From: Methanolobus sp.
GTDB taxonomy: Archaea > Halobacteriota > Methanosarcinia > Methanosarcinales > Methanosarcinaceae
Direction of reading: 5' to 3'
Length of the DNA stretch: 64,000 nt
Assembly: GCA_021767785.1 (NCBI GenBank)
Contig: JAASSR010000002.1
Location: 1 to 64,000 of the forward strand
The notes under the pieces are model-generated. The model searched no databases and was not told the DNA's origin. It saw only the letters and a program-made list of their open reading frames with translations. Below are positions 8,482-43,087 of the stretch, one piece after another. A program made the translations under genes and the position numbers. The stretch's first letter is position 1, and every line of letters begins with the position of its first letter.

Positions 8482-9407
8482 ATGATTTCCTCAATGTCAT
8501 CTTTGGTAAAAGAGCATTCACCTTCAAGATATACTTTATCTGGAAGTTCTCCGAACATGTTCATCAGCAGAAGTTCTCCTATCTCACATTCAAGGTTTTT
8601 CACCAGACCGAATATTGCTGTTGTAGGCCGGGGATTTACATCAATTACGTAAGCTTTATCCCCGTAGATGATATCAATTCCTACAAAACCGTTACATCCA
8701 AGTATTTCTGCAGTTCTTTTTGCGGTCCGGAATATTTCATCTTCATGTTCGGTTCGGTATGGTACCTGGTTTCCTCTATAATCAAAGATTGTTTCATTGT
8801 TATTATTCTTTATATCTATCAATTGCCTGTTCAGGCTCAGAGGAAGTGTCTTTTGTCCGCATATCAGACTCACACTAAGATGCTCTCCTTCGATGTACTC
8901 GGTCATTATGAACTCTTCTTCCACATTCTCATCTATTTCCCCACATGTCATTCTGACTTTTTCAGATGCACATCCGAAACGAGGTTTAATGATGTGGTTT
9001 CCATGGTGCTTTCCCTCTATTATTTTAGGGATTGCTATTGAATTTGATTCCAGGGCCATGCTGCATTTCAGTTTATCGGCACAGAGCCGGACAGATTCAG
9101 GCGAACATCCGATGTTGATGGTATTTCTTTCTATTATATCAGTAAGACCGTCTAGAAGTTCATCGGGTCCTATAACAAGTCCTGCGTCACTTTTCTTTGC
9201 AGCAGTCTCCAGTATTCTCTCAAATGTCTTTTCTTTGGAAATTATTGCATTTCCGCATTTTAACCTGTTTCCTGCAGTAAGGTATGTCACTTCATGTCCA
9301 AGACGGGAGAAACTGTTAGCAAGGGTACTGATCATGGCTCTGCCTTCCAGCAATAACGTACCATCAAGTCCGATTCCCATTGCATATTCTGCAAGCAATA
9401 TTCTCAT
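8478..9407 (-). CDS. mfnD: ATP-grasp protein, tyramine-L-glutamate ligase
   Basis: ATP-grasp motifs (IIKPRFGCASEKV, VIDVNPRPTTAI); overlaps mfnF by 4 nt. Confidence 0.8.
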   Translation of the reverse strand: MRILLAEYAMGIGLDGTLLLEGRAMISTLANSFSRLGHEVTYLTAGNRLKCGNAIISKEKTFERILETAAKKSDAGLVIGPDELLDGLTDIIERNTINIGCSPESVRLCADKLKCSMALESNSIAIPKIIEGKHHGNHIIKPRFGCASEKVRMTCGEIDENVEEEFIMTEYIEGEHLSVSLICGQKTLPLSLNRQLIDIKNNNNETIFDYRGNQVPYRTEHEDEIFRTAKRTAEILGCNGFVGIDIIYGDKAYVIDVNPRPTTAIFGLVKNLECEIGELLLMNMFGELPDKVYLEGECSFTKDDIEEII

Positions 9408-9701
9408 GGTGGATGCAACTGCATTATTTAATATATTATTTGCTATTAGGGTCCTTTATGTTTTAATAAGTGGTCTTTTTCAGTTTCTGTTACAAAGCGT
9501 TTGAAAGTTATAATTACATTATAATTTAAAGTCCCTTACTAATTTTCATAGGATATATGTTAAATATAATAAATGATATCTGAATAACTAACAATTGGGT
9601 AACAGATAAACATATCCTGATTGTAAAAGCGGATTGGGGAGTGGGACCTTCCTTGTTTGATTTCGTCTACAGACAAAAGGCCAGAGTTGGATAAGTGGTA
9701 A

Positions 9702-9798
9702 GAAGGTACGAGACGGGGAGTTAAGACCACATGTTCTATAAAGAGTGGTACTTATAAAAGTGAAAAAGACATGTGGTCTGCTCCTTTTTCGTATCTTC
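9702..9798 (+). ncRNA. Candidate structured RNA: long interrupted hairpin (strand uncertain)
   Basis: GAAGGTACGA (9702-9711) pairs with TCGTATCTTC (9789-9798); GGGGAG (9715-9720) with CTCCTT (9781-9786, two G-U); AGACCACATGT (9724-9734) with ACATGTGGTCT (9769-9779). Confidence 0.45.
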
Positions 9799-9850
9799 AT
9801 CATATTGTGTGTATGACTTTCCCCAGATCCTGCATTAAGAAGGTATTAAC

Positions 9851-9988
9851 ATGGGTTCATTGAAAACATGTCCGGAGTGTCATAATGTTCTGCATACATG
9901 CGAAAACGATCTACAGATTTGTAAGGTATGTGGATACTGGACAAAAATAAATACGGCAAGACTTGATACTATTATGTTATTTGAGTGA
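9851..9988 (+). CDS. 45-aa zinc-ribbon microprotein
   Basis: MGSLKTCPECHNVLHTCENDLQICKVCGYWTKINTARLDTIMLFE; CPEC and CKVC knuckles; below the ORF-track cutoff. Confidence 0.65.
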   Translation: MGSLKTCPECHNVLHTCENDLQICKVCGYWTKINTARLDTIMLFE

Positions 9989-9998
9989 GGGTTAAAAG

Positions 9999-10130
9999 GT
10001 GAAAAGTGAATCACAAAAACACTGTATACATTGCAGCACTGTCTTAAGAAAGCAAAAACTTGGTATGAACATAATCTATTATTGTTCCAGTTGCGGTAGT
10101 ATGACAAGTGCTGATATGATCAGGGTCTAA
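9999..10130 (+). CDS. 43-aa zinc-ribbon microprotein, GTG start
   Basis: VKSESQKHCIHCSTVLRKQKLGMNIIYYCSSCGSMTSADMIRV; CIHC and CSSC knuckles; starts 10 nt after the preceding ORF stops. Confidence 0.6.
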   Translation: MKSESQKHCIHCSTVLRKQKLGMNIIYYCSSCGSMTSADMIRV

Positions 10131-10490
10131 AAATATAACAGGTTTTGGATATTAGAAACACATATATAAACTAAAATAGATTGCAGGTTAACACAGATTT
10201 ATTTCCATATGTATTAATCTGTGTCTACCTTTCATTGTTCTCTGATCAATCTAAATTAACCTCTAAATTGCAGTTCTATCTGACAGGATTCTATTTTCAA
10301 GCATTGGAGTTATGGAAATCTTATTAGATTATCTTTTTGCTTTTAAATTGTCTAATTCTGCAGATCAGGTAAAATACATTTATACTTTTGGAGCATAATT
10401 TATAATAGGAGTGTAGGTTCGGAGAATTCTTGGTTTTAGTACATACTATGATTTTATGGATCTGTCAGAATATAAGGAGTGGTTATTTGT

Positions 10491-11276
10491 ATGAGACGTC
10501 CCCTGCTGGATACTATGTTCATGTCAGAGAAGAGAAAGAATCTTCTATTGTTTCTGAGGGAAGGACCGATGTCAATGGAAGAAATACTCGATTCACTGGA
10601 AGTGACCAGACATGCGATGCTGCCTCAGATCAAGATTCTGGTAGAAAATGATCTTGTAATCAAAGAAAGGGATCAGTGCAGACTTTCTCAAATAGGTGAA
10701 ATTGTAGTTGAGGATATGGTACCTCTAATGGGCACGCTGGAAGTACTCGAGAACAGTTATGATTACTGGAAGAATCATGATCTTAGTCCAATCCCTTCTC
10801 ATCTTCTTAAAAGGATAAGAGAACTTGGATATTGTAAAATTATAGAACCTGACCTTAATGATATGTTCGAACTAAACAAAGACCTTATTGAACAATCGCT
10901 GGGTTCGGAGTTTGTGATGGGGGCAACTGCTTTTCTGCATCCGGCATTTCCTTATTTCCTTCTGGATCTTGTGAAGAAGAATATTGATGTTTCGATCATA
11001 ATGTCTGAAGCAGCTCTGGAAAAGCACAAGGTTGACTACAGTAAAGAGCTTGAATTTTTCCTTGAGAATAACAATGCTAAATTATTCGTATATCCGGAAA
11101 ACATGAACCTGGCATCTCTTTTTATCACTGACAAATTCCTCATGATGTGCCTTTTTGATCGCAATGGAAAATATGATCGCAAGGATCTTGTTTTTTGTAA
11201 CGCTGAGGCTCAACACTGGGGCAGAGAGCTGTTCGAATATTATCTTTCAAGGTCGCATGTTGTAATGGACCTTTGA
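10491..11276 (+). CDS. Second Msr/FilR1-like winged-helix regulator
   Basis: Paralogous to 2525..3310 (MSEKRKNLLLFLREGPMSMEEILDSLEVTRHAMLPQIKILVENDLV); likely start MRRPLLDTMF. Confidence 0.8.
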   Translation: MRRPLLDTMFMSEKRKNLLLFLREGPMSMEEILDSLEVTRHAMLPQIKILVENDLVIKERDQCRLSQIGEIVVEDMVPLMGTLEVLENSYDYWKNHDLSPIPSHLLKRIRELGYCKIIEPDLNDMFELNKDLIEQSLGSEFVMGATAFLHPAFPYFLLDLVKKNIDVSIIMSEAALEKHKVDYSKELEFFLENNNAKLFVYPENMNLASLFITDKFLMMCLFDRNGKYDRKDLVFCNAEAQHWGRELFEYYLSRSHVVMDL

Positions 11277-40581: not shown

Positions 40582-40742
40582 AGTGATTCCCTCTTCTTAA
40601 AATGTAATTATGCTATTATTTATTCTTGTTATTATTATATTTATCTGTATTTTTTATTCAGCGATGAATATTTATATAGTTATAAGTTTTAAAGTACTCC
40701 TTAAGTATTACTCAGGTATTATCTATTTCAGGAGGATCAGTT

Positions 40743-41441
40743 ATCAGTTCAATTGCTTTGTTAAGTAGTGGTCTTGATTCTGTTACTGCTATTGCAGCAG
40801 TTCAGAATGATATCGGTGTCAAAATGGCCCTTATATTTGATTACGGACAACGCTCTGTTAAACGTGAGATCGAAAATTCGGTGAAGGTCTGTGAACATTT
40901 TGGAATAAAATATCGTATTCTGGACATAAAATGGATGAAGGAAATTACAAACACATCTCTTGTAAACAAGGATAATGATGTCCCTTTACTGAGCATGAAC
41001 GAAATTGCAGATGATGCTGACCCCTCACTTACCATGGAGTCTGCAAAAGCCGTATGGGTTCCCAACAGAAATGGTATTCTTATAAACATTGCAGCAGCAT
41101 TTGCCGAAAGTATGGATTGCGATTATATTATCACAGGTTTCAATAAAGAAGAAGCGGTCACTTTTCCGGACAATTCTCCTGAATTCATTTCTGCGATAGA
41201 TAATTCTCTTTCGTATTCAACGCAAAACGGAGTGAAAGTACTTGCCCCGCTGATGGGTCTTGATAAAAAAGAAATAGTTATCAGAGCAACAGAGCTCCAC
41301 GCTCCTCTTCAGTATAGCTGGAGTTGCTACCACGGCGATGATATTCCATGTGGTGAATGTGAAAGCTGTATCAGAAGAAAAAGGGCTTTTGAGATGGCAG
41401 GGGTAAATGATCCTTTACTTGAAAGGTTTGCAAATGAATAA
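40743..41441 (+). CDS. queC: 7-cyano-7-deazaguanine synthase QueC, apparent non-canonical ATC start
   Basis: [22 protein letters not shown]-loop; C-terminal [25 protein letters not shown] zinc site; GGAGG at 40731-40735; no ATG/GTG/TTG upstream of 40758 before the in-frame stop at 40683. Confidence 0.92.
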
Positions 41442-41469: not shown

Positions 41470-42027
41470 ATGGAATGTATTATCCTCGATAAAAGAACAG
41501 ATTACGATGGCAGTCAAATATCATCTCTCTGGGCGTATAATCTCGCAGATATACAGTCGGATTCTATTATCGCATTCAGAGGTGCTTGTGATGTTAGTAT
41601 CGAACATATGATCGATCTTGAAGATAAAAAACAGGGTGATATGATATATTCCACTGACATGCTCCATTTTATCATAGAACATTTTGATTCCATCGATCTG
41701 AAACTCATATATGCAAGACAGCGTCTTTTCACTTCAATTGTAAAGGAAGTACTCTTGCAATTCTGTACTAATATAATAAGAAAAGGTGACGATCTCTTTG
41801 TGAATGGAAAGAAGCTCACAGTATCTATTGCCAGCACATCATCAGTTTCGCAGAAGATACATTTCGGGATCAATGTGGTACATGATCATTATGGAAGTCT
41901 AGAGGAACTGGGAATTGGAAGCGATGATGCCGTGAATCTTATGGAAAAAATAGCAAGACTTTATTATAATGATTTTATCGATATTGAAAAAGACCTTAGA
42001 AAATCCAGACCACTGGATGTGGTATAA
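41470..42027 (+). CDS. DUF366 family protein in preQ0 operon
   Basis: MECIILDKRTDYDGSQISSLWAYNLADIQSDSIIAFRGACDV; between queC and queE. Confidence 0.7.
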   Translation: MECIILDKRTDYDGSQISSLWAYNLADIQSDSIIAFRGACDVSIEHMIDLEDKKQGDMIYSTDMLHFIIEHFDSIDLKLIYARQRLFTSIVKEVLLQFCTNIIRKGDDLFVNGKKLTVSIASTSSVSQKIHFGINVVHDHYGSLEELGIGSDDAVNLMEKIARLYYNDFIDIEKDLRKSRPLDVV

Positions 42028-42743
42028 TACAGGCTTCAATCAGTGAGATATTCTGCTCTGTACAGGGAGAAGGTCCTTATGTAGGATGCAGACAGGCTTT
42101 CATTCGTTTTACGGGATGTAATCTGAATTGTAATTATTGCGATACTCCTTTGGAACATACAAATTACTGCAGGTTTGAGGAACTCCCGGGATCCGGTATA
42201 TTCATAGATCTTGAGAATCCTCTTTCCCCTTCCTATGTGAGTGAGATGGCAAACTCGTATTCAGCTTTACACTCAATATCACTTACCGGTGGTGAGCCAC
42301 TTATGTGTGCGGATTTTATTTCCGAACTGGATACTGAGGCCCCTCTGTATCTGGAATCGAACATGACGTTGCCACATATGGCTAAAAAGATCAGGGATCA
42401 CCTTTCCTATGTTTCCGGAGATGTAAAGCTTCTTCCTCGTTATTTACTTGAGGACCCTGACCTGCATCTTGAAAATACTATAGAGTGCTTCAGGATGCTG
42501 AGGACTACAAAAGAAAGGGATTGTTTCTGTAAGATAATTGTAACAGAGAATACACCTGCTGATGATATTGAAGGAGTTATCGGTGCAATATCAGGCTATA
42601 TATCATGCCTCATATTACAACCGGTAACACAAAAAGATCTACAGCCGGATCCTGCTTATCTCCTGAAATTGCAGGAATCATTTATTGATGATATTGATAC
42701 CCGAATAATACCACAGACCCACAAAATGTGGGGGTGCCTATAA
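42027..42743 (+). CDS. queE: 7-carboxy-7-deazaguanine synthase QueE (radical SAM), apparent non-canonical ATA start
   Basis: IQASISEIFCSVQGEGPYVGCRQAFIRFTGCNLNCNYCDTPLEHTNY; the supplied ORF (42150) begins after the CxxxCxxC motif; frame opens at 42000 with no ATG/GTG/TTG before the motif. Confidence 0.92.
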   Translation: MQASISEIFCSVQGEGPYVGCRQAFIRFTGCNLNCNYCDTPLEHTNYCRFEELPGSGIFIDLENPLSPSYVSEMANSYSALHSISLTGGEPLMCADFISELDTEAPLYLESNMTLPHMAKKIRDHLSYVSGDVKLLPRYLLEDPDLHLENTIECFRMLRTTKERDCFCKIIVTENTPADDIEGVIGAISGYISCLILQPVTQKDLQPDPAYLLKLQESFIDDIDTRIIPQTHKMWGCL

Positions 42744-43087
42744 TGAAAATGAGACTTGGAATAATCGATCATATTGACAGTGCCCACTATCTTCCGGGGC
42801 ATGAAACATGCGGAATAGTTCACGGTCATACTTATAAAACAGAGGTCGTGATAGAAGGTGAAAAGGAAGAAACAGGTATGGTTATGGATTTCTATGAGAT
42901 CAAGAAGATCATAAAGGAAGTCCTCAAAGAGTATGACCATGTTCTGCTGAATGACATACTTGAATTTCCAAGTGTTGAGAATCTCTGTGAGCATGTCCAT
43001 GCTAATTTATCATCAAGACTTGTTTTCCCAATGTCAGTGAAGATGTGGGAAGGTGCAGGTAAGTGGTGTGAAGTAAGTACACTTTGA
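42743..43087 (+). CDS. queD: 6-carboxy-tetrahydropterin synthase QueD
   Basis: DHIDSAHYLPGHETCGIVHGHTYKTEVVIEG; start overlaps queE stop (TAATG). Confidence 0.93.
   Translation: MKMRLGIIDHIDSAHYLPGHETCGIVHGHTYKTEVVIEGEKEETGMVMDFYEIKKIIKEVLKEYDHVLLNDILEFPSVENLCEHVHANLSSRLVFPMSVKMWEGAGKWCEVSTL

Follow-up and report, generated by a model that had tools for sequence, protein, structure and literature searches.

The start codon of queE was analysed in a 64,000-nucleotide stretch of Methanolobus DNA (the window), which comes from a metagenome-like assembly (G000; 154 contigs, 2.33 Mb). The comparison with relatives indicates that queE is probably intact and translated, its start codon having decayed from AUG to AUA, with re-initiation at UAAUA in a lineage which already tolerates AUH (AUA, AUC or AUU) starts. 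The gene belongs to a queC-DUF366-queE-queD operon (Table 1), and the same genes with the same type of overlapping junction are present in Methanolobus and Methanococcoides.

The queE frame opens at 42000, directly after the TAG at 41997, and reads AAA ATC CAG ACC ACT GGA TGT GGT ATA ATA CAG GCT TCA ATC AGT GAG ATA TTC. The DUF366 stop TAA (42025-42027) overlaps the second of the adjacent ATA codons as TAATA, and queE overlaps queD as TAATG (42741-42745); both overlaps are as the sequence-only reading had described them. That reading had also stated that no ATG, GTG or TTG precedes the QueE motifs in this frame, and this is correct. The first such codon is TTG 42150, which is codon 42 counted from ATA 42027 and sits 3' of CNLNCNYCD, so that a start there would give a product without the cluster-binding cysteines. 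The ATA at 42027-42029 is the only start which agrees with the orthologues. Among 135 gene pairs compared between G000 and G004, queE and queC were the only G000 genes clearly without a canonical start. As the relatives place ATG at exactly these codons and only two such genes occur in the 135 pairs, the missing starts are more than chance, and queE in this genome most likely initiates at AUA.

The identity of the genes was examined by profile search and by motifs. QueE carries SVQGEGPYVG and CNLNCNYC in frame, which hold the QGEGP and CxxxCxxC patterns, and it matched the radical SAM family PF04055 with 38.1 bits, above the 29.5 threshold. The cut-offs of the NCBIfam QueE equivalogs were not reached, the best being TIGR03963 with 56.1 bits vs 260.1; these models cover other QueE subfamilies, and the name is assigned from the motifs and the operon context. 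One orthologue of queE, 65-79% identical, was present in each relative of the same genus, and a second copy was not found in the G000 genome. QueC scored 191.5 bits against the TIGR00364 equivalog (cut-off 150.3), which places it in the QueC family, and PF06508 matched its product at 8e-59. The archaeosine tRNA-guanine transglycosylase is also encoded in the genome (G000:C106).

Table 1. Positions of the features in the window and of two further genes from the survey (G24 denotes the G24 concatenation)
Feature	Position	Strand	Details
GGAGG Shine-Dalgarno (SD) of queC	40731..40735	+	6-nt match to anti-SD
queC start ATC	40743..40745	+	column ATC/ATT/ATA throughout clade
queC, 7-cyano-7-deazaguanine synthase	40743..41441	+	232 aa + stop; TIGR00364, PF06508
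DUF366 gene	41470..42027	+	ATG start; TAA stop overlapping queE; PF04017 1.3e-72
ATA, relic of upstream ATG in ancestral ATGATG pair	42024..42026	+	alignment with relatives
ATA, probable queE start codon	42027..42029	+	ATG in nearly all relatives (alignment)
queE, 7-carboxy-7-deazaguanine synthase, radical SAM	42027..42743	+	238 aa + stop TAA
queD, 6-carboxytetrahydropterin synthase	42743..43087	+	ATG start; TIGR03367 94.3 bits, cut-off 89.25
RNA polymerase B''	G000:C62:3659-3688; L211, G24 9057-10727	minus (G24)	ATA/ATC/ATT start
aIF1A	G000:C113:4053-4103; L250, G24 796505-796873	minus (G24)	CTG start

The DUF366-queE junction was aligned to 29 relatives, and its pattern was printed out for 81 genomes of the family. 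The ancestral junction reads ...GATATGATG, with a TGA stop and two in-frame ATGs. Most other Methanolobus have GATGTGATATGATG, in which the TGA stop of DUF366 overlaps the first of the two ATGs. The junction reads ATA ATG in G010, G008 and G014 and CTA GTG in G002, and a subclade of G006, G011, G016, G021, G023 and G026 has the queE ATG some codons upstream. Among Methanolobus, only G000 (ATA ATA) and G019 (ATA ATT) are left without any canonical start at the junction. The overlap had been likened earlier to the TAATG of queE/queD, with a difference of one G-to-A change; the overlap itself stands, but the alignment gives G-to-A at both ATGs of the ancestral sequence and not a single change. 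G019 is a single-contig genome, so a non-AUG start of queE is not limited to a single, fragmented assembly. The dN/dS of queE between G000 and seven relatives was 0.07-0.14, and its nonsynonymous distance to the outgroups fell among the values of the other species. By these values queE in G000 is evidently under purifying selection, a working gene and not a decaying one. That a functional queE probably initiates at AUA, as first suggested, is in accordance with these ratios and with the ATG which the relatives have in the same codon. The states ATGATG, ATAATG and ATAATA or ATAATT look like a stepwise loss in which the redundant ATG went first. Since G000 and G019 alone show the loss and ATA ATG intermediates occur elsewhere, it looks like recent, local drift that is tolerated at a start under translational coupling, and conserved control was not seen at this junction. 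A 75% complete genome of group g7 has ACGTCAGCTTCG at the queE start (G122:C126:5789) against ATGTCAGCTTC in its relatives; this is a possible further non-AUG queE, or the start may lie upstream.

The claim that queC is likewise without a canonical start was confirmed, with ATC following the GGAGG at 40731. ATA or ATC starts in orthologues had been proposed as a check on both genes, and the alignment supported it for queC, where the start column is ATC, ATT or ATA in 27/27 Methanolobus, but not for queE, which is mostly ATG. The queC start was also ATC, ATT or ATA in all Methanomethylovorans seen (four loci and five genomes of group g25, the species being partly shared). Methanosarcina, Methanococcoides and the remaining genera have ATG, with one TTG in a Methanohalophilus. 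In the QueC tree of 67 rows, a single change from AUG to AUH suffices; it falls at the root of a clade of 31 rows (SH-aLRT support 96%), and within this clade at least 8 changes among ATA, ATC and ATT were counted and none to ATG. Active avoidance of ATG was rejected as a reading of this count, as 0/8 changes to G is too weak alone and the changes are mostly C/T transitions.

ATH also codes for isoleucine, so the conservation of the queC column alone would not separate a start from a sense codon. The AUH was taken as the start because upstream alternatives are missing: G012, G014, G008 and G013 have no ATG, GTG or TTG between the opening of the queC frame and the SSGLDS core, and the queC frame of G019 and G022 begins no earlier than the SD. 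In 7/27 Methanolobus an in-frame ATG, TTG or GTG lies 4-5 codons 5' of the AUH, overlapping the SD, and in those seven species this codon may serve as the queC start. The TTG at codon 6 was rejected as a general start; it is missing in 11/27 Methanolobus, its distance from the SD is about 22 nt, and a start there would truncate the conserved N-terminus. The queC SD is at least 5 nt long in 26/27 Methanolobus, compared to 35% of 572 surveyed genes, and only 3-4 nt in three outgroup queC genes which start with ATG. This suggests that a strong SD compensates for the poor start codon. queC is the stronger case of a non-AUG start than queE, and it points to a lineage which truly uses start codons that gene finders ignore. 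Repeated GTATTA/AGTATT units (AAGTACTCCTTAAGTATTACTCAGGTATTATC) were observed 5' of queC at 40686-40730 of the window, with similar units in other Methanolobus, and are possibly an operator.

Further non-canonical starts were surveyed by comparing 1.6 Mb of G004 with two other genomes, of which 0.28 Mb (G000) and 0.8 Mb (G024) were covered. The survey comprised 651 gene pairs, roughly a quarter of the genes, after removal of antisense open frames, and the names of the further genes were given from reading the sequences and not from profile search. Four genes besides queC and queE stood out clearly: RNA polymerase B'', aIF1A, a CheR-like gene and an isopropylmalate/homocitrate synthase-like gene. 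The start region of B'' is GAAGGTGCT ATC ATA GCG TTA in an open frame having no canonical codon before the conserved region. A DNA pattern search showed B'' without NTG in the matched Methanolobus and in the other genera of the family that were read (G027-G029, G031-G036). The ATH is always one codon before a leucine codon, which is TTA, but TTG in G033; in the other readable families of the order the leucine codon is immediately preceded by ATG or GTG. In 17 Methanolobus, G000 among them, aIF1A starts with CTG after GAGGTATTAAT, and CTG was also present in G028, G031 and G032 and in two G036 copies, while one aIF1A paralogue of G027 has ATG in this column.

The CheR-like gene (G24 concatenation, L211-L250, 117105-117767, plus strand) reads GAGGATAAT ATA with no canonical start. 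The ATA is found in G024 only and G004 has ATG two codons upstream, so this gene is apparently another species-specific AUA start. The isopropylmalate/homocitrate synthase-like gene (same concatenation, 339691-341169, minus strand) reads GAGGGATTATATTATTYGAA in Methanolobus without a canonical start, and a related leader, GGGATCGTTTTATTT, was seen in another family of the order; it is a candidate whose exact start codon is not fixed. A helicase (G24 141920), a DsrE-like gene (G24 674019), a CidA-like gene (G24 593567) and the gene at L130 12638 were dropped as each has an ATG upstream. Initiation at AUH or CUG looks real and recurrent in Methanosarcinaceae, at roughly 1% of the surveyed genes, and the queE of Methanolobus would be one recent addition to these genes.

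The ATA codons of queE could be explained by sequencing or consensus error at 42026 and 42029, considering that the contig was assembled from metagenome-like data in 154 pieces. This is unlikely, because two separate G-to-A errors would be needed in adjacent codons with the remaining frame intact, the single-contig G019 independently has ATA ATT, and the AUH of queC recurs in dozens of independent assemblies. The earlier view that the starts are not random error is supported, the AUH of queC extending across the whole clade and AUU appearing at queE in a second species. It is still less probable that queE is an incipient pseudogene, its start having gone only recently and its translation having ceased. 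Both ATGs are indeed gone in a terminal lineage, but the frame is intact, the dN/dS ratios show no acceleration, queC, queD and the transglycosylase gene are intact, and the genome search gave no second queE. The least credible explanation is that QueE synthesis depends entirely on a frameshift out of DUF366 or on the TTG at 42150; the open frames of DUF366 and queE do overlap by 28 bases (42000-42027), but at the junction the relatives have an ATG in frame with queE and the TTG lies beyond the three cluster-binding cysteines. Nor was a frameshift site noticed, short of a dedicated search.

Deliberate control is the likeliest of the alternatives. In this explanation the AUH starts hold QueC, and in G000 also QueE, at a low or fidelity-dependent level, which would tune the supply of preQ0 and archaeosine in the manner of infC. 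It is possible, though on balance doubtful. The AUH of queC has been kept without reversion over 31 species of two genera, the Sulfolobus solfataricus factor aIF1 is reported to discriminate against non-canonical starts (PMC8211752), infC and sigR provide precedents in bacteria (PMC5472188), and the CUG start of aIF1A is itself conserved. Against this, queE has ATG in nearly all relatives, the SD of queC is stronger than usual and not weaker, RNA polymerase B'' has a like start with no obvious regulatory reason, and QueC is not an initiation factor. The sequence-only reading had proposed a deliberately weak start common to both genes, which fails for queE as its loss is restricted to two genomes with stepwise intermediates elsewhere; for queC the conservation of AUH was upheld and the weakness is unproven, given the strong SD. 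A link of these starts to archaeosine demand is without evidence here, since the same type of start occurs in B'' and aIF1A.

For the preferred explanation, loss of AUG at a coupled junction, the following steps are proposed. A ribosome finishing DUF366 at UAA would sit on the overlapping AUA and re-initiate on queE, where the initiator Met-tRNA would tolerate the third-position mismatch. At queC the strong SD would place the 30S subunit and the initiator anticodon would pair with the leading AU of AUH. Since AUH would already serve as a start in queC and B'' of this lineage, AUA could be used at queE. We infer that ribosomes initiate at the AUA and AUC codons themselves, that the first residue is methionine and that queE is coupled to DUF366. 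The tolerance of AUH is not due to a missing aIF1, the factor with the reported discriminating role, as its gene is present in G000 (G000:C114).

The bacterial infC gene for IF3 has a near-cognate AUU or AUC start, long kept and usually missed by annotation (PMC5472188). infC and queC are alike in keeping AUH over evolution, and conservation of AUH across species is found for queC but not for queE. The infC product, however, discriminates start codons and controls itself, whereas QueC and QueE are biosynthetic enzymes. The CUG of aIF1A would be a nearer archaeal parallel to infC, yet aIF1 is the factor reported to discriminate. In Streptomyces, sigR has a GTC start under IF3 repression, the regulation being shown by experiment (PMC5472188). 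Both sigR and queC are non-initiation-factor genes with a conserved non-canonical start, but the codons differ and a regulatory role at queC is hypothetical. The cases of infC and sigR show that a start of this kind can be regulatory; the strong SD and the like start in B'' argue that the AUH of queC need not be. A report of AUH starts in archaea was not found in the open-access literature, subscription journals being mostly outside the scope of the search.

Within the family, Methanosarcina, Methanococcoides and others have ATG at queC, the Methanolobus-Methanomethylovorans clade has AUH, and queE has AUA or AUU in two species. It may tentatively be supposed that queC, B'' and aIF1A form a conserved class of Methanosarcinaceae genes with non-canonical starts whose translation is governed by initiation fidelity, an archaeal counterpart of IF3 control, with queE representing the spread of this tolerance. 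As gene finders accept hardly any start but ATG, GTG and TTG, the N-termini of such genes are likely to be mis-called, or the genes missed. AUH in queC and in an RNA polymerase subunit, together with CUG in an initiation factor, would make archaeal start-codon fidelity directly testable, and the Methanosarcinaceae include the genetically tractable Methanosarcina.
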